Assembly: GCF_023243045.1 (NCBI RefSeq)
Contig: NZ_JALKFX010000030.1
Coordinates: 1 to 64,000, forward strand
Direction: 5' to 3'
DNA from: Frankia sp. AgB32
Lineage (GTDB): Bacteria; Actinomycetota; Actinomycetes; Frankiales; Frankiaceae
DNA length: 64,000 nucleotides
Shown here one piece after another: positions 977 through 64,000 of this stretch (positions are counted from its first letter, which is position 1; each line of letters opens with the position of its first letter). The notes under the pieces are model-generated. The model was not told the origin of the DNA. It worked only from the letters and a program-made list of their open reading frames with translations, and made no database searches. The position numbers were made by a program, and so were the translations under genes.

Positions 977-3304
977 TCAGCCCACTCCCGGGATGAACTG
1001 GATCAACAGGTCGATGATCTTGATGCCGACGAACGGGGCGATGATGCCGCCGACGCCGTAACGGGACAGGTTGCGCGACAGCAACGCCGAGGCGCTGCTC
1101 GGCACGTACTGCACGCCGCGCAGCGCCAGCGGGATCAGGGCGACGATGACGAGCGCGTTGAAGATGACCGCGGACAGGATCGCCGACTCCGGCGTGGCCA
1201 GCCGCATGATGTTGAGCCGGTCCAGGCCGCCGTACACCCCGGCGAACATCGCCGGGATGATCGCGAAGTACTTCGCCACGTCGTTCGCGATGGAGAACGT
1301 GGTCAGCGCCCCGCGGGTGATGAGCAGCTGCTTGCCGATCTCGACGATCTCGATCAGCTTCGTCGGGTCGCTGTCGAGGTCGACCATGTTCCCGGCCTCC
1401 TTGGCGGCCGACGTGCCGGTGTTCATCGCCACGCCGACGTCCGCCTGGGCCAGCGCCGGGGCGTCGTTCGTGCCGTCGCCGGTCATCGCGACGAGGTGAC
1501 CCTTGGCCTGCTCGGCGCGGATGAGGGCGAGCTTGTCCTCGGGGGTCGCCTCGGCGAGGAAGTCATCGACGCCGGCCTCCTCGGCGATCGCCTTCGCGGT
1601 CAGCGGGTTGTCGCCCGTGATCATCACGGTGCGGATGCCCATCCGGCGCATCTCGTCGAAGCGGTCCCGCATGCCGGTCTTGACCACGTCCGCGAGTTCG
1701 ATGACTCCAAGGACCCGGGCGCGCGTCGCGACCGGCCCGCCGGCGCTGCTGGTGCTGGTCCGGGTCGTCTCGGCGACGACAAGCGGGGTGCTGCCAGCCG
1801 CGGAGATGCCGTCGACGATCTCGCCGAGCTGCGGGGGCACGGGTGCGCCCGTCGCGCGCACCCAGGCGACGACCGCGCTGGCCGCGCCCTTGCGGATCTG
1901 GCGGCGCGGCATGCCTTCCTCACTGCCAGGATCCGCCCTGCCAGGATCCGCGTCCGGGTCGGCCAGGTCGACCCCGGACATCCTGGTCTGCGCCGTGAAC
2001 GGCACGAACGTCGCCGCGCGCAGCTCACCCGGCGAGCGTTCCCGCAGGCCGTGGCGTTCCTTCGCGAACACGACCACCGAGCGGCCCTCGGGTGTCTCGT
2101 CGGCGAGGGAGGAGAGCTGCGCGGCGTCGGCGAGCATCGCCTCGTCGATGCCATCGACGGGCAGAAACGCCCGCGCCTGCCGGTTGCCGAACGTGATGGT
2201 GCCGGTCTTGTCGAGCAGCAGGGTGCCGACGTCGCCGGCGGCCTCGACGGCCCGCCCGCTCATCGCCAGGACGTTGCGCTGCACCAGCCGGTCCATCCCG
2301 GCGATACCGATCGCGGACAGCAGCGCCCCGATCGTCGTCGGGATCAGGCAGACGACCAGCGAGACCAGCACGATGCCGGTGATCCCGTGACTGGTCAGCG
2401 CGGCCGAGTCGGGGACGGCGGGCTGCGACGCCTTGGTGTAGACCGCCAGCGGCTGCAGCGTGGCGACGGCGAGCAGGAAGATGACAGTGAGGGCCGCCAG
2501 CAGGATGTTCAGGGCGATCTCGTTGGGGGTGCGGCGCCGGTCGGCGCCCTCGACCAGGCGGATCATCCGGTCGATGAAGCTCTCCCCCGGCTGCTGGGTG
2601 ATCCGCACGACGATCCGGTCGGAGAGCACCTTCGTCCCGCCGGTCACCGAGGACCGGTCGCCGCCGGACTCCCGGATCACCGGCGCCGACTCGCCGGTGA
2701 TCGCCGACTCGTCCACGCTGGCGATGCCCTCCACGATGTCGCCGTCGCCGGGGATGAGCTCCCCCGCGACCACGACGACGTAGTCGCCGCGGGCAAGCTG
2801 GGGCGCCGGCACCTCGGCAACCTCCACCCCGCTCACGGCTGTCCCCACGCTGCCGCTGCCGCTGCCGGAACCGGTGCCCTGCCCGGTGTGGGTGGCCGCG
2901 TCCAGCGGATCGCCGGGCGACCAGCCGGTGAGCCGGCGGGCGATCGTGTCCGTGCGGGTCCGGCGCAGTGCCGCCGCCTGGGCCTTGCCACGGCCCTCGG
3001 CGACCGCTTCGGCCAGGTTCGCGAAGACCACCGTCAGCCAGAGCCAGCCGGTGATCAGCCAGCCGAACACCGACGGGTTGCCGACCGCCAGCACGGTGGT
3101 GAACACCGCGCCGACCTCGACGATGAACATGACCGGGTTGTGCCAGAGCGTCCGCGGGTCGAGCTTGCGCAGCGCGTCCGGCAGGCCACGCAGCAGCTGG
3201 CGCGGGTCGAGCAGCCCGCCGCCGACCCGCCGCGGGCCGGCACCGGGCCGGGAGTCGCGCGGCGCGCCACCGGCGCCGGGCGGGGCGATCAGGGTGGTAC
3301 TCAC
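977..3304 (-). CDS. kdpB: KdpB, P-type ATPase catalytic subunit of K+ pump
   Basis: Catalytic subunit that hydrolyses ATP to drive K+ uptake through KdpA. The 775-residue protein shows the P-type ATPase hallmarks in order: actuator motif TGES in [10 protein letters not shown], the phosphorylated aspartate in [12 protein letters not shown] (about residue 360), and the hinge [18 protein letters not shown]. Membrane helices are grouped before the actuator domain, around 220-330 and at the C terminus. A Gly/Ser-rich stretch near residue 150 ([12 protein letters not shown]) and an Asp/Pro-rich stretch near 450 are insertions. The start codon overlaps the kdpA stop by four bases, implying translational coupling. 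Confidence 0.97.
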
Positions 3305-5079
3305 GAGTGGATCCCTTCCGCGAGCGGACCGAGCGCGAGAGCCGGGAAGAACGTCAGCGCGACGAGGACCACCGCGACGGCGGCGAGCATCCCGGCGAAC
3401 TGCGGGCGGTGCGTGGGCAGGGTGCCCGCGGTCACCGGCACCGGTTCCTGTCTGGCGAACGAGCCGGCCATGCCCAGGACGAACAGCATCGGCAACAGGC
3501 GGCCGAACAGCATCACGAGACCCAGCGCGGTGTTGTACCAGGTGGTGTTCACGCCGATTCCGGCGAATGCCGAGCCGTTGTTGTTCGCCGCCGAGGTGAA
3601 CGCGTAGAGCACCTCGGAAAGGCCGTGCGCCCCGGAGTTGAGCATGCCGGCCCGTTCACCGGGCAGCCCCATCGCAATTCCGGTGCCGAGCAGCGCGAGA
3701 ATCGGGGTGATGAGAAAGTAGAGCGCGGCGAACCGGATCTCCCGCGAGCCGATCCGCTTTCCGAGGTATTCGGGTGTCCGTCCGATCATCAGGCCGGCCA
3801 CGAACACGGTGACGACGGCCAGCACCAGCATTCCGTAAAGGCCCGAGCCGGTACCGCCGGGGGCGACCTCACCAAGCATCATGTTGAACAGCAGGGTGGC
3901 GCCGCCGAGGCTGGTGTAGGAGTCGTGGAACGAGTTGACCGCGCCGGTCGAGGTAAGGGTCGTCGCGCTGGCGAACAACGACGAGTTCGGCACGCCGAAG
4001 CGGGTCTCGGTGCCCTCCGTGGCGGCGCCGACCGCCGTGGGCACGGTGCCGTGGTGCACGGCCTGGAACGCGGCGCCGATGGCGAAGCTGCCCAGCGCCA
4101 GCACGGCCATCACGGAGACGATCGCGAGGCCCTGTCGGCGGTCGCCGGCCATCCGACCGAAGGCCCGCGGCAGCGAGAACGCGATGGCGAGCAGCAGGTA
4201 GATCTCGAACAGGTTCGTCCAGGACGTCGGGTTCTCGAACGGATGCGCCGAGTTGACGTTGTAGAAGCCGCCGCCGTTGGTGCCGAACTCCTTGATCGCC
4301 TCCTGGCTGGCGACCGGGCCGCCGGTGATCGTCTGGTGTCCGCCGGCGAGGGTGGCGACGACGCGGTCGCCGTGCAGGTTCTGGATCGCCCCGCCGGCGA
4401 TCAGCACGATCGCGGCCAGCACACAGACCGGCAGCAGGATGCGGATCACCGTGCGCGTCAGGTCGACCCAGAAGTTCCCCAGCTCGTCACCGGTGCTGCC
4501 CGGGCCGCCGCCGCCGGCAGCACCACCCGCGCGGCCCGCCGCTCCCCCGCGGCTCGGCCGTCCCGGGTCGCCCGACCGTCCCGGGTCGCCTGCGCTGGCC
4601 AAGGCCCGGCGCCGCGTGAGGCCGCGGACCACGGCGATCGCCACCGAGATGCCGACCGCGGCGGACAGGAAGTTCTGCACGGCCAGGCCGGCCATCTGCA
4701 CGAGGTGGCCCATGGTCGACTCGCCGGAGTACGCCTGCCAGTTCGTGTTCGTCATGAAGCTGACCGCGGTGTTCCAGGCCAGCGGCGGGGCCACCCCGGC
4801 AAACCCGAGACCGAGCGGCAGATGCGACTGCACTCGTTCCAGCAGGTACAGCAACAGCACGCTGACCAGTGAGAACGCCAGTACGCCGCGGGCGTAGACC
4901 GGCCAGCGCTGACCGGAGTCCGGGTGCACGCCGGTGAGCCGGTAGATCGCCCGCTCGATCCGCAGATGCCGTCGGTCCGTATACACCCGGTACATGTGGT
5001 CGCCGAGCGGGCGATAGGTGATCACAAGCGCCGCGACCAACAGCGCCACCGCCAGCGCACCTGCGACGTTCGTGGACAT
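3301..5079 (-). CDS. kdpA: KdpA, potassium-translocating subunit
   Basis: Membrane channel-like subunit that binds and moves K+ in the Kdp complex; belongs to the superfamily of K+ transporters. The 592-residue product is hydrophobic throughout, with the [18 protein letters not shown] selectivity-loop segment in the middle and the second pore-like segment [13 protein letters not shown] near the C terminus. An unusual Gly/Ala/Arg-rich stretch of about 40 residues lies in a cytoplasmic loop (around residues 160-200). The ATG overlaps the kdpF stop by one base. Length is close to the usual 560 plus this loop. Confidence 0.97.
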
Positions 5080-8690: not shown

Positions 8691-9332
8691 TCAGCCGAGG
8701 ATGCCGCGTTCGTAGGCGACGGCCACGGCGGCGGCGCGGTCGCGGACGCCGAGTTTGTTGTACAGGTGGATGAGATGCGTCTTGATCGTGGCCTCGCTGA
8801 CCATGAGTTCGCGGGCGGCGGCCTGGTTGGTGGCACCGGCGGCGACCAGGCGCAGCACGTCGCGTTCGCGGGGGCTGAGGCTGTCGGGTTCGCGGGCGCC
8901 GACCCGGCCCATCAGCGTGCCGGCGACGGACGGGGCGAGCACCGACTGTCCCGCGTGGGCCGCCCGCACGGCGCGGATGAGCTCGTCGCGGCGGGCGTCC
9001 TTGAGCAGGTAGCCGGTGGCGCCGGCCTCGATCGCCGGCAGGACGTCCCGATCGCTGTCGAACGTGGTGAGCACCAGCACGCGGGCGGGATTGCCCAGTG
9101 CCCGTAGGCGGGTGATGGCCTCGACGCCGCCCATCCCGGGCATCCGGAGGTCCATCAGGATCACGTCGACCTCGACGGCCTCGGCGCGCGTGACGGCTTC
9201 GGCGCCGTCTGCGGCCTCCGCGACGACGGCGAAGTCCGGGTCGCCGGCGAACACCCCGCGCAGCCCGTCACGGACGATCGGATGGTCGTCGACGATCAGC
9301 AGCCGGATCGGCCCGGCCGCCGCCCCGCTCAT
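8691..9332 (-). CDS. NarL/FixJ-family (LuxR-type) response regulator
   Basis: Two-component transcription factor of 213 residues. The N-terminal receiver has the acidic pair in IVDDHP and the phosphoacceptor Asp61 in VILMDLRMPGMGG. The C-terminal LuxR helix-turn-helix is LSPRERDVLRLVAAGATNQA, then VSEATIKTHLIHLYNKLGV. The start overlaps the stop of the histidine kinase gene by four bases, so they are a cognate pair. It probably controls the adjacent ABC exporter, as DesR-like systems do, which is inference. Confidence 0.93.
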   Translation of the reverse strand: MSGAAAGPIRLLIVDDHPIVRDGLRGVFAGDPDFAVVAEAADGAEAVTRAEAVEVDVILMDLRMPGMGGVEAITRLRALGNPARVLVLTTFDSDRDVLPAIEAGATGYLLKDARRDELIRAVRAAHAGQSVLAPSVAGTLMGRVGAREPDSLSPRERDVLRLVAAGATNQAAARELMVSEATIKTHLIHLYNKLGVRDRAAAVAVAYERGILG

Positions 9333-57627: not shown

Positions 57628-58491
57628 CTACAGGTCGGCGTACTGCGGCTCGTCGGCGATGAGGATCCGCTCGAGCAGGCGCGGAGTGTCGCCGTAGTTG
57701 CGCACGGCGTAGTGCACGGCCGCCCGGTTGTCCCAGAACGCCACCGACCCGGGCCGCCAGGAGAAGCGCACCTGGTTCTCCGGCCGGCGGTACTGGTCGA
57801 TGACCGCCGTCAGCAGTTCCCTGCTCTCGGTGCGGTCGAGGCCGATGATCGTCGGCCGCTGGGTGAAGTTCACCCAGGCGATCTGCTCTCCGGTCTCCCG
57901 GTGCACCCGGACGACCGGGTGGGCGACGATCGGGTAGTCGTGCCCGGCCGCGTTCAGCGCGCCGCGGAAGTCGTGCGTCACGTGTAGCCCGGCCAGGCGT
58001 TCCTTCACCTCGTCGGACAGCCGCTGGTAGGCGAGGGCCGCGTCGACCCAGACGGTGTCGCCGCCGACCTCGGGCAGGTGCACGGCCCGCAGCACCGCAC
58101 CCCACGTCGGCACGAGCCGCCAGCTCGTGTCGGTGTGGTACGGGTCCCAGCTGTCATCGCCGGCCTGCGGCGCGTGGGACTTCTCGATCTTCTTGAAGTC
58201 GGCGGAGGAGATCTGGTGGATCGCGCTGACCTGCGTGTCCGCCTTCGGCGCGCCCGGGTGGGTGTAGAGGGGGCCGAACTCGCGGGCGAAGGCCTCGTGA
58301 CGCTCCTGCGTCAGGTCCTGGTCGCGGAAGAAGACGACCTTGTACCTGAGCACGGTGGCCCGGATCTCGTCCCGGGCGGCCGGCGCCAACGGCTGGCTGA
58401 TGTCGACGCCGCTGATCTCGGCGCCGATCGTGGGCTGCAACGGCCGGACGGTGAGCCGCGACTGGACGGGGGTCTCCACGACAGTGGTCAC
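57628..58491 (-). CDS. TauD/TfdA-family 2-oxoglutarate-dependent dioxygenase
   Basis: A 287-residue iron enzyme that typically releases sulfite from taurine or other sulfonates. The iron triad is HTDTSW (His, Asp) and the C-terminal His in RAAVHYAVRNYG; the 2-oxoglutarate Arg is in RLLERILIAD. VDISQPLAPAARDEI and VVFFRDQDLTQERHEAFAREFG are family segments. It lies about 70 bases after the SDR remnant, downstream of a cysteine leader peptide (59140-59226), which supports a sulfur-scavenging role. TfdA- or sulfate-ester-type substrates cannot be excluded. Confidence 0.9.
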   Translation of the reverse strand: MTTVVETPVQSRLTVRPLQPTIGAEISGVDISQPLAPAARDEIRATVLRYKVVFFRDQDLTQERHEAFAREFGPLYTHPGAPKADTQVSAIHQISSADFKKIEKSHAPQAGDDSWDPYHTDTSWRLVPTWGAVLRAVHLPEVGGDTVWVDAALAYQRLSDEVKERLAGLHVTHDFRGALNAAGHDYPIVAHPVVRVHRETGEQIAWVNFTQRPTIIGLDRTESRELLTAVIDQYRRPENQVRFSWRPGSVAFWDNRAAVHYAVRNYGDTPRLLERILIADEPQYADL

Positions 58492-59139: not shown

Positions 59140-59226
59140 TCAGGCGAGGCGGCGCGGACAGCTCGCGGAGGTGACACGCAGCAGGTCGATGTGCTGGCGC
59201 CTGACCAGATCCGCGGTCCTCAACAC
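59140..59226 (-). CDS. Cysteine-type leader peptide upstream of the SDR remnant and tauD
   Basis: A 28-codon frame beginning GTG TTG and containing RRQHIDLLRVTSASC, then PRRLA and a stop. The [RQ]HIDLLRV.S..C pattern is that of the 'putative leader peptides' seen before actinobacterial sulfur genes, where the terminal Cys codon is thought to sense charged Cys-tRNA. The promoter's -10 (59234-59239) implies transcription starts about 59227, so translation is probably leaderless. The sequence is short, so expression needs testing. Confidence 0.7.
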   Translation of the reverse strand: MLRTADLVRRQHIDLLRVTSASCPRRLA

Positions 59227-59457: not shown

Positions 59458-60291
59458 ATGACGATCTCCACTCCTGAGTCCCCGCCAACGTCGGTCACCG
59501 CGTCCGGCTGGGCCGGGCAGGTCTCGCCGGCCGAGGGCGGGCCATGGCCCCGGCCCGTGCCGGCACGCGACCTCACCGAGGAGCGGCTGCACCGCCGCCG
59601 CAAGCTCGCGGCGGCCTACCGGATCTTCGCCAAGCTCGGCCTCGCCGAGGGCCTGTCCGGCCACATCACCGCCCGCGACCCGGAACTGACCGACCACTTC
59701 TGGGTCAACCGCTTCGGCCTCGACTTCAGCCGGATCACGGTGTCCAACCTGCTGCTGGTCAACGGCAGGGGCGAGATCGTGCACGGGCAGCCGCCGCTGA
59801 ACACCGCCGCCTTCGCGATCCACGCGCAGATCCACGCCGCGCGCCCGGACGTCGTCGGCGCCGCGCACACCCACTCCCCCTACGGCCGGGCGCTGTCCGC
59901 GCTGGGTGAGCCGCTGCATCCGATCTCGCAGGACGTGTGCACCTTCTACCAGCAGCACGTCGTCTACGACGAGTACAACGGCGTCGTCCTGACCGAGGCG
60001 GAGGGCCGGAAGATCGCCACCGCGCTCGGCCCGCACAAGCTGGCGATCCTGCGCAACCACGGCCTGCTCACCGTCGGCACCACCGTGGAGGCGGCCGCCT
60101 ATCTGTACATCGCGGCGGAGCGGGCAGCCAGGACCCAGCTCCTCGCCGCCGCCGCCGGTCCGCTGCGCCTGCTGGACCACGACATCGCCAGCGCCACCGC
60201 CGGGCCGGGCCGCGGCGACGACGGCGCCCGCTGGGCGTTCGACGCGCTCTACGAGGTCATCGTCGCCGAACAGCCCGACCTGCTCACCTGA
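59458..60291 (+). CDS. Class II aldolase/adducin-family protein
   Basis: A 277-residue zinc-dependent aldolase-like enzyme. Metal-binding histidines are in VGAAHTHSPYGRALS and the later ILRNHGLLTVG; a catalytic Glu is expected in the aldolase fold. GLAEGLSGHITARDPE near residue 55 matches the family. ATG 59458 is preceded by GGGAAGGAC; the frame is open to an ATG at 59314, which would add 48 residues. Its neighbours link it to the sulfur region, but its substrate is unknown. A strong hairpin follows the stop. Confidence 0.88.
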   Translation: MTISTPESPPTSVTASGWAGQVSPAEGGPWPRPVPARDLTEERLHRRRKLAAAYRIFAKLGLAEGLSGHITARDPELTDHFWVNRFGLDFSRITVSNLLLVNGRGEIVHGQPPLNTAAFAIHAQIHAARPDVVGAAHTHSPYGRALSALGEPLHPISQDVCTFYQQHVVYDEYNGVVLTEAEGRKIATALGPHKLAILRNHGLLTVGTTVEAAAYLYIAAERAARTQLLAAAAGPLRLLDHDIASATAGPGRGDDGARWAFDALYEVIVAEQPDLLT

Positions 60292-60547: not shown

Positions 60548-60577
60548 TTGACGTCAGCTCCATCGATCGGGCATTCT
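60548..60577 (+). promoter_or_regulatory. Sigma70-like promoter of the plus-strand Cys leader
   Basis: TTGACG at 60548-60553 and CATTCT at 60572-60577 (18-base spacer). The inferred start, about 60583-60584, coincides with the ATG of the leader peptide, as on the opposite strand. The -10 is weak. Confidence 0.45.
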
Positions 60578-60583
60578 CCACAC

Positions 60584-60658
60584 ATGCGGTCGAGATTCCT
60601 CCTCGTGGCGTGTCGCTACGTGGACTACCTGCGGACGTCCAGCGCCCTCTGTCGCTGA
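60584..60658 (+). CDS. Cysteine-type leader peptide upstream of the Dpp-like ABC operon
   Basis: A 24-codon frame reading MRSRFLLVA, then CRYVDYLRTSSALCR and a stop. The (R/H)xVDxxRxSSALCR ending matches actinobacterial Cys leader peptides, with Cys codons at positions 10 and 23. It lies 328 bases before the substrate-binding protein and directly after a promoter whose start matches its ATG. It probably senses cysteine supply and controls the following transport operon by attenuation. Confidence 0.75.
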   Translation: MRSRFLLVACRYVDYLRTSSALCR

Positions 60659-60985
60659 CACCGTCGGCTGTCACTGACAGCAACACTCTTCGGTGACGCT
60701 GCCGCTGCGAGCGGCACCCACCACACCTCGATCACCGCCCACAATCACTCATTGTGATCGTTAGCGCCTGCCCGCTCCACCGGTCAGGTGCGACGAGAGC
60801 ACGCCTCCCCGCACCCAGGACCGCACCCGGGTGAAGTCCCGTGCACGTCTCGAGGTTGGCCGCTGAAAGCCGCCTGCCCACGCGCCGACACGGGGCTGCG
60901 CCTTCTTTTCGCGCGCCTGTTTTCTGTTTCACGGGTATGCGCCGGCCCGGCCCGACCCGCTTTTCAGGAAGGAACACCGTTCCCA
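60659..60985 (+). other. Leader RNA between Cys peptide and ABC operon, with terminator-like stem
   Basis: About 330 bases without a gene. AGTCCCGTG (60835-60843) can pair with CACGGGGCT (60889-60897; one G-U). This is followed by GCGCC and CTTCTTTTC, a T-rich tract ending at 60910. This long-range stem could be the terminator of an attenuator. No known riboswitch consensus was recognised. Confidence 0.45.
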
Positions 60986-62545
60986 GTGAACGCACAACCA
61001 CGAGCCGAATCGTTGGTCATCGGTCGCCGCGGCTTTCTCGGTCTCGGCGTGCTTGCCGGCTCGTCTGTGCTGCTCGCCGCCTGCGGCAGCGGCGGCGACG
61101 CGGTCTCGTCCACCGGCAAGGAGGGCGGGACGCTGCGGTGGGGCTGGGCGGAGGTCACCTCCTGGGACCCGGTCACCTCGTCCGCCGGGTGGGACGTCCA
61201 CGCGCTGTCGTTGGTGTACGCCGCGCTCACCAAGCTCGACGAGTTGGGCAACCCGGTCCCGGCGGCGGCCGAGTCGTGGAAGTACAACGACAGGGGCGAC
61301 CAGATCACCTTCGTGCTGCGCCCCGGTCTGACCTTCAGCGACGGCACCCCGCTGAACGCCACCGCCGTGAAGAAGAGCCTGGAGCGCGGCCGGGACTTCG
61401 CCGGCTCGCTCGTCGCCGCCCAGCTCGTCAGCATGCAGACGATCACGGCGAACGACGACGCCCGCACCGTCACCATCGGTCTGTCGACCGTCGACTACCA
61501 GATCCCGAGCCTGCTCGCCGGCAAGACCGGCATGATCGTCAGTCCCACCGCGTTCGCGAAGGACGCGAAGGGCCTGGCCACCAAGCCGGTCGGGGCCGGG
61601 CCGTTCAGACTCACCGCGTACGTGCCGAACCAGTCGGCGAAGCTGGTGCGCTTTCCCGGCTACTGGGACAAGGCGAACATCCACCTCGACGCCTTCGAGC
61701 TCTACCCGGCGCCCGAGGCGGCGACCGCCATCGCGGCGCTGCAGTCCGGCCGGCTCGACGTCGCCCAGCTCCCGGGCAGCCAGGTCGCCGCGGCCAAGTC
61801 CGCCGGGCTGGAGGTGCAGGTCATCCCCTCCCTGGTGACCACGGTGCTCGACGTGAACGTCACGAAGGCGCCGTTCGACAACCCGAAGGTCGTCGAGGCG
61901 TTCAAGTACGCCATCGACCGCCAGGCGCTGGTCCAGACCCAGACCTTCGGCCTCGGCACCGTCAACTACCAGCCCTTCCCGCCCGGATACGTCGGTCACG
62001 ACCCGAGCCTGGACAACGCGTTCGGCTACGACCCGGACAAGGCGAAGAAGCTGCTCGCCGAGGCCGGCCACGCCACCGGGCTGTCGGTGGCACTCACCAC
62101 CACCGGCCAGTCCTCCGAGCTCTCCGAGCAGCTGCAGGCGCAGCTCGCCAAGGTCGGCGTGAAGCTCACCATCGACACGATCCCGTTGTCCCAGGCCACG
62201 CAGATCATGTACATCCAGCACTCCCGACCCATCGCGGTGGACGGGTTCGCCGGCCGGGACTCGGCCGTGCAGGCCTTCCAGGTGCTCTTCGGTGACCAGG
62301 GCCTGATGAACCCGGGCCGCAGGACCCCGCCGGAGCTGACCGCGGCGCTGCAGAAGGTCCGGCACACCCCGCTGGACGACCCGTCGTACCCGACGGTCCT
62401 GCAGGCCGCCACGAAGATCGCGGTCGAGCAGATGCCGAACATCTTCCTGTTCACCCAGCCCCGCATCCTCGCCCGCAAGAAGAACGTCTCGCCGCTCGGC
62501 AACTACCTCGCGGTGCAGCGCTTCGAGGGCGTCCGGGTCAGCTGA
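60986..62545 (+). CDS. ABC transporter substrate-binding protein, family 5 (Dpp/Nik-like)
   Basis: A 519-residue lipoprotein. The N terminus has a twin-Arg-like RRGFLGLGVLAGSSVLLAAC signal with a lipobox. The family-5 body shows LTFSDGTPLNATAVKKSLER, GAGPFRLTAYVPNQSAKLVR, and FKYAIDRQALVQ. Family 5 binds peptides, nickel, glutathione and opines. GTG 60986 has AGGAAGGA upstream. It begins the operon with two Dpp-type permeases and follows a cysteine-type leader, so a sulfur-containing ligand is likely (inference). Confidence 0.9.
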   Translation: MNAQPRAESLVIGRRGFLGLGVLAGSSVLLAACGSGGDAVSSTGKEGGTLRWGWAEVTSWDPVTSSAGWDVHALSLVYAALTKLDELGNPVPAAAESWKYNDRGDQITFVLRPGLTFSDGTPLNATAVKKSLERGRDFAGSLVAAQLVSMQTITANDDARTVTIGLSTVDYQIPSLLAGKTGMIVSPTAFAKDAKGLATKPVGAGPFRLTAYVPNQSAKLVRFPGYWDKANIHLDAFELYPAPEAATAIAALQSGRLDVAQLPGSQVAAAKSAGLEVQVIPSLVTTVLDVNVTKAPFDNPKVVEAFKYAIDRQALVQTQTFGLGTVNYQPFPPGYVGHDPSLDNAFGYDPDKAKKLLAEAGHATGLSVALTTTGQSSELSEQLQAQLAKVGVKLTIDTIPLSQATQIMYIQHSRPIAVDGFAGRDSAVQAFQVLFGDQGLMNPGRRTPPELTAALQKVRHTPLDDPSYPTVLQAATKIAVEQMPNIFLFTQPRILARKKNVSPLGNYLAVQRFEGVRVS

Positions 62546-62586: not shown

Positions 62587-63630
62587 ATGACGACACTGGA
62601 GATCGAACGACCAGCCGGGCTGGCGGCCCCGCGGGTGGGCAGCCGACCGGGGCGATGGGCGGCCGACCGGGGCGGCCGACTGCTGCGCCTGCTGCGCAGC
62701 CTGCTGTTCGTCGGCGTGCCGGTGGTACTGCTTTCCACCTTCATCACCTATGGGCTCGGTGCCCTCACCGACACCAACCCGGCGGCGCAGGTGCTCGGCG
62801 AGACGGCGACCCCGGCGGACATCAACCGGATGAACCACTACTTCGGTCTGGACCGGCCGTTCCTCGTCCAGTACTTCAGCTGGCTCGGGCACGCCCTCAC
62901 CGGGGATCTCGGGCGGTCGTACTACACCACCCTCCCGGTGACCGACAGCATCAGCCAGGCGCTCCCGGTGAACCTCTCGATCACGATCGTCGCGCTGCTG
63001 ATCGCCATCCTGCTCGGCGGCGCGCTCGGCATCGGGGCGGCGCTGTCCGGCGGTGGCTGGTTCGACCGGGGGGTGACGCTGCTGTGCTCGGCGGCGTCGA
63101 CGGTGCCGCCGTTCGTCATCGGCATCGCCCTGATCGTGCTGTTCTCGGTGACGCTGCCGATCCTGCCCTCGGGCGGCTACGTGCCGTTCACCGAGGATCC
63201 GGCGCGGTGGCTGCGGTTCGCCATCCTGCCGGCGCTCGCCCTCTCGGTGGAGGGAGCCGTGGCCATCGCCCGCCAGCTACGGACCTCCCTCGTCGGGGAG
63301 CTGCAGGAGAACTACGTGACCGGCGCGGACGTGCGCGGCCTGACGAAGCGGCGGGTGGTGTTCGGCCACGCGCTGCGCAACGCCGCCGGGCCCGCGGTCA
63401 CCGTGCTGGGGTACTACGTCCCGCAGATCATCGGGGCGATGGTCGTCGCCGAGGCGGTGTTCAACCTGCCCGGGCTCGGCAAGCTCAGCCTGGACGCCGC
63501 GGGCAAGGGTGACATCCCGGTCATCCAGGGTGCGCTGGTCACCATGATCGGCCTCGTCGTGATCTCCAACCTGCTGGTCAACGCCGCCCTGCTGCGGCTG
63601 ACCCCGCACGCGCGGAAGAAGGAAGCATGA
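62587..63630 (+). CDS. ABC transporter permease, DppB/OppB type
   Basis: A 347-residue inner-membrane protein with six spans. The family C-terminal loop reads EGAVAIARQLRTSLVGELQ, then YVTGADVRGLTKRRVVFGHAL, where the EAA-type motif contacts the ATPase. LGLDRPFLVQYFSWLGHAL is the conserved periplasmic segment. It follows the binding protein by 41 bases and overlaps the next permease by four. Confidence 0.93.
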   Translation: MTTLEIERPAGLAAPRVGSRPGRWAADRGGRLLRLLRSLLFVGVPVVLLSTFITYGLGALTDTNPAAQVLGETATPADINRMNHYFGLDRPFLVQYFSWLGHALTGDLGRSYYTTLPVTDSISQALPVNLSITIVALLIAILLGGALGIGAALSGGGWFDRGVTLLCSAASTVPPFVIGIALIVLFSVTLPILPSGGYVPFTEDPARWLRFAILPALALSVEGAVAIARQLRTSLVGELQENYVTGADVRGLTKRRVVFGHALRNAAGPAVTVLGYYVPQIIGAMVVAEAVFNLPGLGKLSLDAAGKGDIPVIQGALVTMIGLVVISNLLVNAALLRLTPHARKKEA

Positions 63631-64000
63631 GCGGCACGTTGCGCCGGGCCGTGCGGCTACGGTCCACGAAGATCGCGCTGGTGGCCCTCGGGGTGGTCGT
63701 CTTCGTCGGCGTCGCCGGCGGGGCGCTCGCCCCGCAGGACCCGCTCGCCCAGGACACCGCGCACGTGCTGGCCGGGCCCAGCGACGCGCACTGGCTCGGC
63801 ACCGACTACCTCGGCCGGGACGTCCTCAGCCGGCTGATGGACGCCACCGGCCGGTCCATCGTCGGCGCGGCGGAGGCCGTCGCGATCGCCTTCCTGCTCG
63901 GCGTGCCGGCGGGCCTCGGCTCGGTGTTCTTCGGCCGGTTCTTCGACTGGGCGGCCCAACGCGTCGCGGACTCGGTCATGACGCTGCCCTACCTCGTCGT
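63627..64000 (+). CDS. ABC transporter permease, DppC/OppC type (cut by window end)
   Basis: The first 124 codons only. MSGTLRRAVRLRSTKIALVA begins the first membrane helix. The family segment LAPQDPLAQDTAHVLAGPSD, then HWLGTDYLGRDVLSRLMDAT is typical of DppC/OppC. The ATG overlaps the DppB stop (ATGA). The ATP-binding genes are expected just beyond the window. Confidence 0.93.
   Translation, partial: MSGTLRRAVRLRSTKIALVALGVVVFVGVAGGALAPQDPLAQDTAHVLAGPSDAHWLGTDYLGRDVLSRLMDATGRSIVGAAEAVAIAFLLGVPAGLGSVFFGRFFDWAAQRVADSVMTLPYLV

Follow-up and report, generated by a model that had tools for sequence, protein, structure and literature searches.

The open reading frame (ORF) at 60584-60658 on the forward strand of the window, the whole stretch of 64,000 nucleotides of Frankia sp. 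AgB32 DNA that was analysed, is probably an NF042934-type leaderless, cysteine-responsive attenuator related to those of M. smegmatis. It would control a sulfur-scavenging operon through ribosome pausing at a UGU codon, and the importer encoded by that operon would take up an organosulfonate-like C-S compound. The putative target operon would comprise a family-5 binding protein, two permeases, two ATPases and two SsuD-like FMNH2-dependent monooxygenases. The leader would thereby flag a peptide-type importer with two unassigned SsuD-like monooxygenases as a sulfur-scavenging operon that annotation by the binding protein alone would miss.

The leader ORF (MRSRFLLVACRYVDYLRTSSALCR, 24 codons, ATG to TGA) is NF042934-like. 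On the same strand it is preceded by a -35 hexamer TTGACG (60548-60553), invariant across eight aligned sequences, and by a -10 hexamer CATTCT (60572-60577) that ends 6 nt before the ATG and reads CATTGT in most orthologues, giving the layout TTGACG-N18-CATTCT-N6-ATG with the ATG at 60584. The initial annotation had placed a Cys-type leader ORF and its promoter before a Dpp-like importer, at 60548-60658, which corresponds to the -35 hexamer through the leader stop codon; the ORF, both hexamers and their position were confirmed. The spacing of 18 and 6 nt was identical in 8/8 aligned Frankia and Parafrankia sequences, the block GGGCATT(C/G)T was kept across the same alignment, and leaders of Embleya and Streptomyces had the same spacing with other hexamers (TTGACA, CAGGAT). 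The promoter was not called by a consensus scanner alone, because its -10 hexamer is weak; the support for it comes from conservation instead. The predicted transcript start would lie at or adjoining the leader ATG (60584). There is no space for a Shine-Dalgarno sequence between the -10 hexamer and the ATG, so translation from that promoter would be leaderless. Class-wide, a TANNNT starting 12-14 nt ahead of the start codon was seen for 18 of the 134 candidate starts in frame, versus 1 of 113 out-of-frame controls. The predicted geometry, which is kept in relatives, fits the earlier proposal that the promoter start coincides with the ATG.

A position-specific profile built from 63 other leaders and scanned over the whole window scored 30.3 at 60604 (+), in the leader under study, and 40.8 at 59205 (-), in a divergent leader. 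The third-best place in the window reached 5.0, and 60 order-1 Markov-shuffled windows gave at most 13.2; these two leaders are the only ones of their kind in the window and stand far above the shuffled controls. Binding-protein orthologues in named Frankia and Parafrankia records had 83-87% identity, and the orthologous leaders 75-100% residue identity. Codons at conserved residues were, on the whole, more often unchanged in the leader than in the binding-protein gene. In the eight-sequence alignment, conservation ended right after the leader stop codon and resumed at the ribosome-binding site ahead of the binding-protein gene. The leader has Cys codons at Cys10 and Cys23 only, with no run of Cys codons, and Cys23 is next to the end of the ORF (23 of 24). 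Cys10 was variable (Arg in one orthologue); the Cys aligned to Cys23 was kept in all orthologues.

Against NF042934 (cis_reg_atten, putative leader peptide) the leader scored 16.7 bits, under the cut-off of 27, because RY/DY replaces RH/DL. Leaders of relatives scored 29.7, 27.9, 25.0 and 23.6 bits, those of the relatives at 66-68% exceeding the cut-off (29.7) and those of orthologues coming close to it (23.6), and they also matched NF042936 and NF042933, the Ms4527A and Ms5788A Cys-rich leader families. Like NF042934 leaders, the ORF precedes a putative sulfur operon on the same strand. By its putative function the leader is a member of the known cysteine leader class, though formally under the NF042934 cut-off, and the assignment to that class in the initial annotation was borne out by the profile score together with the matches of the relatives. 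No Rfam family reached its gathering score in the region, and two weak matches were attributed to chance.

The mycobacterial ORFs that precede nirA/Msmeg_4527 and cysA2/Msmeg_5788 are described as leaderless small ORFs, and ribosome occupancy was demonstrated for the one upstream of cysA2/Msmeg_5788 (PMC4633059). Terminator-less Cys leader peptides before Mycobacterium cys operons were predicted in 2005 (PMC1262725), and a passage in PMC13236596, citing Canestrari 2020, reports cysteine genes of M. smegmatis to be under translation attenuation. The Frankia leader has the same motif and place as NF042934, and the mycobacterial ORFs of Ms5788A (cysA2) and Ms4527A (nirA), families NF042933 and NF042936, are likewise short leaderless-type ORFs before sulfur genes. 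The common motif with the mycobacterial Cys-rich ORFs is R-x-x-V/I-D-x-x-R-x-x-x-x-x-C, with the Cys near the stop codon and UGU at the aligned Cys. The Frankia leader differs from them in having one tail Cys plus the variable Cys10 and no cysteine run, and in its target, an organosulfur importer operon preceded by a long unconserved stretch. Taken with its promoter geometry, this likeness makes a leaderless, cysteine-responsive attenuator the most likely reading of the leader.

The codon at Cys23 (UGU, 60650-60652, +) occupies position +9 of the motif, counted from the invariant Asp. The codon at this position was UGU in 107/107 distinct leaders, and in 65/65 after similar sequences were removed, whereas in these genomes UGU accounted for 10% of the Cys codons of downstream genes; the other Cys codons in those leaders were mostly UGC. 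At the aligned Cys of the two mycobacterial-type families UGU was found in 29/29 and 21/22 leaders, with one UGC exception. The initial leader regex had missed 13 loci, most of which were recovered by other means, and every recovered leader in which the motif was located had UGU at the control position. The codon of Ser20 (AGC, 60641-60643, +; position +6) was also restricted across the class: of the 59 Ser residues at this position in the non-redundant set, 52 were encoded by AGC, against 29% for Ser in downstream genes. The deviation in codon usage was 3.25 bits at Cys +9, 1.12 bits at Ser +6 and at most 0.57 bits elsewhere. This restriction singles out Cys23 as the proposed control codon, and suggests that codon identity, and not the amino acid alone, may matter at +9. 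No earlier report of the UGU restriction was found in the literature searched, which is not proof of absence; the only codon statement found concerned a different, alphaproteobacterial cysS leader in which UGC is dominant (PMC8632094).

The same conservation bears on an unlikely alternative, in which the peptide D-x-x-R-x-x-S-A-x-C itself arrests the ribosome and UGU is specially read. The Asp (107/107) and the Arg (106/107) are conserved as strongly as the Cys, and the fixed UGU contrasts with the mostly UGC codons of the other Cys residues in the same leaders, as a nascent-chain or codon-specific device would have it. Mycobacterial relatives are reported to be cysteine-responsive, however, and extra Cys codons, expected of a tRNA sensor, occur in many relatives; both argue against this alternative. 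A broader proposal, that the whole class is a UGU-specific switch, acting by wobble by tRNA-Cys, tRNA modification or RNA contact, and that the family-5 route to sulfonate-like sulfur was previously unrecognised, is tentative, with the balance slightly against it. If functional, the fixed UGU would make it possible to tell tRNA supply and codon-specific decoding apart as bases of attenuation.

Between the leader and the binding-protein gene there is a C-rich, G-poor stretch of 324 nt (60659-60982, +; C 0.39, G 0.27). C exceeded G after the leader stop codon in 8/8 aligned sequences and, class-wide, (C-G)/(C+G) was 0.12 after the leader versus 0.03 before it (p = 2e-5, n = 74), an excess of C that would weakly suit Rho. 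From leader to gene, no intrinsic terminator (G+C hairpin and U run) was present on the coding strand, and no conserved hairpin or RNA structure was visible in the eight-sequence alignment. An attenuator of the intrinsic-terminator type was accordingly rejected, no hairpin with a U run being on the strand and none conserved. A ribosome-binding site sequestered by structure and freed by the stalled ribosome was rejected too, as masking the leader gave no consistent opening.

By the proposed mechanism, a ribosome starting at the 5' AUG would pause at the UGU of Cys23 when charged tRNA-Cys is scarce, and the paused ribosome would allow the downstream message to be made or translated. It could act in one of two ways: by preventing Rho-dependent termination within the C-rich 324 nt, or by altering RNA structure at the start of the binding-protein gene. 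With ample cysteine, the ribosome would finish and depart, and expression would stay low. The imported C-S compound would be cleaved to sulfite by the monooxygenases.

The gene that follows encodes a family-5 solute-binding protein (60986-62545, +; SBP_bac_5, PF00496, 1.6e-72) that scored 245.1 bits, above the gathering score of 32.4. It has a twin-arginine-like signal and a lipobox (RRGFLGLGVLAGSSVLLAAC), and its GTG start comes after AGGAAGGAA; start and ribosome-binding site were kept in the aligned orthologues. A Dpp/Opp-type permease B (62587-63630, +; BPD_transp_1 and BPD_transp_1_N) is followed by a second permease (BPD_transp_1; 63627-64000, +) that leaves the window and extends to about 64546 on the contig, and, outside the window, by an ATPase with ABC_tran and oligo_HPY domains (64538-65569, +). 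The peptide/nickel class given to the transporter in the initial annotation is therefore upheld by SBP_bac_5, the two BPD_transp_1 permeases and the oligo_HPY ATPase. The contig (C198) breaks off within the second ATPase, its end at 65718 lying in a poly-C run. This run (about 65650-65718; 5650-5718 in L025) looks like an assembly artefact, which splits the operon from another contig, C248. On C248 there are an ATPase (201-1232) and two SsuD-like genes (1274-2338, 87%; 2409-3500, 92%). In the closest orthologue (L194) the second ATPase is followed by the first and then the second SsuD-like gene. One or two SsuD-like genes were found after the transporter in every orthologue with a long enough contig, and relatives at 66-67%, Embleya included, had the same operon order. 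On the basis of gene order in relatives, C198 and C248 would join as one operon.

The SsuD-like proteins scored about 202-216 bits against models of alkanesulfonate monooxygenase, TIGR03565 and PRK00719 being the best NCBIfam families of both. Against TIGR03565 the pair scored 201.8 and 213.9 bits, below the SsuD equivalog cut-off of 518, so that they may in fact act on a different C-S compound. In the PDB, SsuD structures matched the second protein best. Streptomyces homologues (43-46%) with the leader are followed by NtaA/DmoA, LLM, ssuE and O-acetyl(homo)serine sulfhydrylase genes. Alphaproteobacterial homologues without such a leader also adjoin LLM monooxygenases, and hence the transporter type too, and not the leader alone, tracks C-S oxidation. 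In Gordonia, growth with organosulfonates as the only source of sulfur induces both NtaA-type FMN monooxygenases and alkanesulfonate monooxygenases (PMC7661421).

Judging from these neighbours, the importer would most likely take up an organosulfonate or some related C-S compound. The suggestion of the initial annotation, cysteine-controlled uptake of a sulfur source resembling a peptide or glutathione, is improbable, more so than the arrest peptide considered above. Family-5 transporters classically carry peptides, and both the top NCBIfam match of the binding protein (GsiB, PRK15413) and its best PDB sequence match (YliB, that is, GsiB) point to glutathione, but the GsiB score was 161.8 bits, far from the 594 that the cut-off demands, and binders of nickel, dipeptides and heme matched as well. 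The genes that follow are for SsuD-like FMNH2 monooxygenases, with which the operon ends, and not for peptidases or glutathione-degrading enzymes. The SsuD-like genes of the orthologues and of C248, with the NtaA/DmoA, ssuE and sulfhydrylase genes of Streptomyces, make a sulfonate-like substrate preferable to a peptide or glutathione. The accompanying claim held, namely that a role in sulfur acquisition could not be guessed from the family of the binding protein by itself.

The glutathione importer GsiABCD belongs to the same transporter superfamily and has a family-5 binding protein; the Frankia system differs in falling far under the GsiB cut-off, in being without a glutathione-processing gene and in having two separate ATPases versus the fused GsiA. 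The ssu and tau operons also combine an importer with an SsuD-type FMNH2 monooxygenase under cysteine or sulfur control. Compared with them, the Frankia importer is family-5 (Dpp/Opp-type) with two ATPases and not of SsuA/TauA type, and there are two SsuD-like enzymes, both under the SsuD cut-off, with no ssuE noticed adjoining.

That the ORF is untranslated, being a conserved DNA or RNA element or a chance ORF, is very improbable: nucleotide conservation is high, third positions included, but the amino-acid motif is common to the leaders of many families despite many synonymous differences, the profile score is far above those of shuffles, and a relative in M. smegmatis has ribosome occupancy.

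At E <= 0.001, NF042934 matches numbered 8 in the Frankia genome and were present in 54/58 related genomes and in 0/14 control genomes; at E <= 1e-5, 91/148 matched across the class. For 110 surveyed leaders, a sample biased to high-scoring leaders and to Frankiaceae, the downstream genes were clustered and read from representative sequences. The most frequent were genes for sulfite reductase (26), sulfurtransferase (24) and family-5 binding protein (20), followed by LLM-type monooxygenase (4), TauD (3) and cysteine-synthase-like proteins (3); singletons included metK, ABC binding proteins of other types and PAPS-reductase-like genes. The placement of the same class before genes for sulfite reductase, sulfurtransferase, TauD, cysteine-synthase-like proteins and metK supported the tie to cysteine or sulfur that had been proposed. 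The initial annotation had considered a family-5 importer unusual behind this leader, the sulfonate type being the usual one. The survey agreed with the association of leader and family-5 binding protein but not with its rarity, as such genes ranked third, at 20 of the 110, and SsuA/TauA-like binding proteins were rare among the targets.

In this genome, 3/6 family-5 binding proteins had the leader (on contigs C198, C222 and C272), so that the same leader logic would mark half of its family-5 importers. The three belong to different subfamilies, and no SsuD- or NtaA-like gene was found within the stretch read for the C222 and C272 types. No leader was detected for several homologues of the family-5 binding protein (L055, L056, L058-L070, L273-L275, L282 and L284), so the leader seems to have been gained or lost independently of the transporter. 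Two divergent leaders on C260 (L012, L014) stand before metK and an amidohydrolase-like gene, the former extending the class to methionine/SAM genes in this genome too. On C222, a good-scoring motif at 9036-9089 (L006) had no in-frame ATG, GTG or TTG in the 75 nt before it, which may mean that it uses another start codon, that the leader has decayed or that the assembly is wrong there.

A palindrome was observed just upstream of the -35 hexamer of the leader in Streptomyces (GACACCAATTGGTGTC) and in Embleya (GACACCAACAGGTGTC), at about 8387-8402 in L270 and about 8366-8381 in L269, and was not seen before the -35 hexamer in Frankia. In Streptomyces, an Rrf2-family regulator is encoded near the leader that bears the palindrome. 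The palindrome of Streptomyces and Embleya is a possible second layer of control.

The divergent leader of the window, whose motif (containing LVRRQHIDLLRVTSASC) is at 59158-59208 (-), scored 24.9 bits against NF042934. Downstream of it is a gene for a TauD-family dioxygenase (57628-58491, -), and a class II aldolase-like gene (59458-60291, +) is beside the TauD-family gene and its leader. In some Frankia orthologues (L188, L189), the TauD-family and class II aldolase-like genes likewise adjoin the importer.
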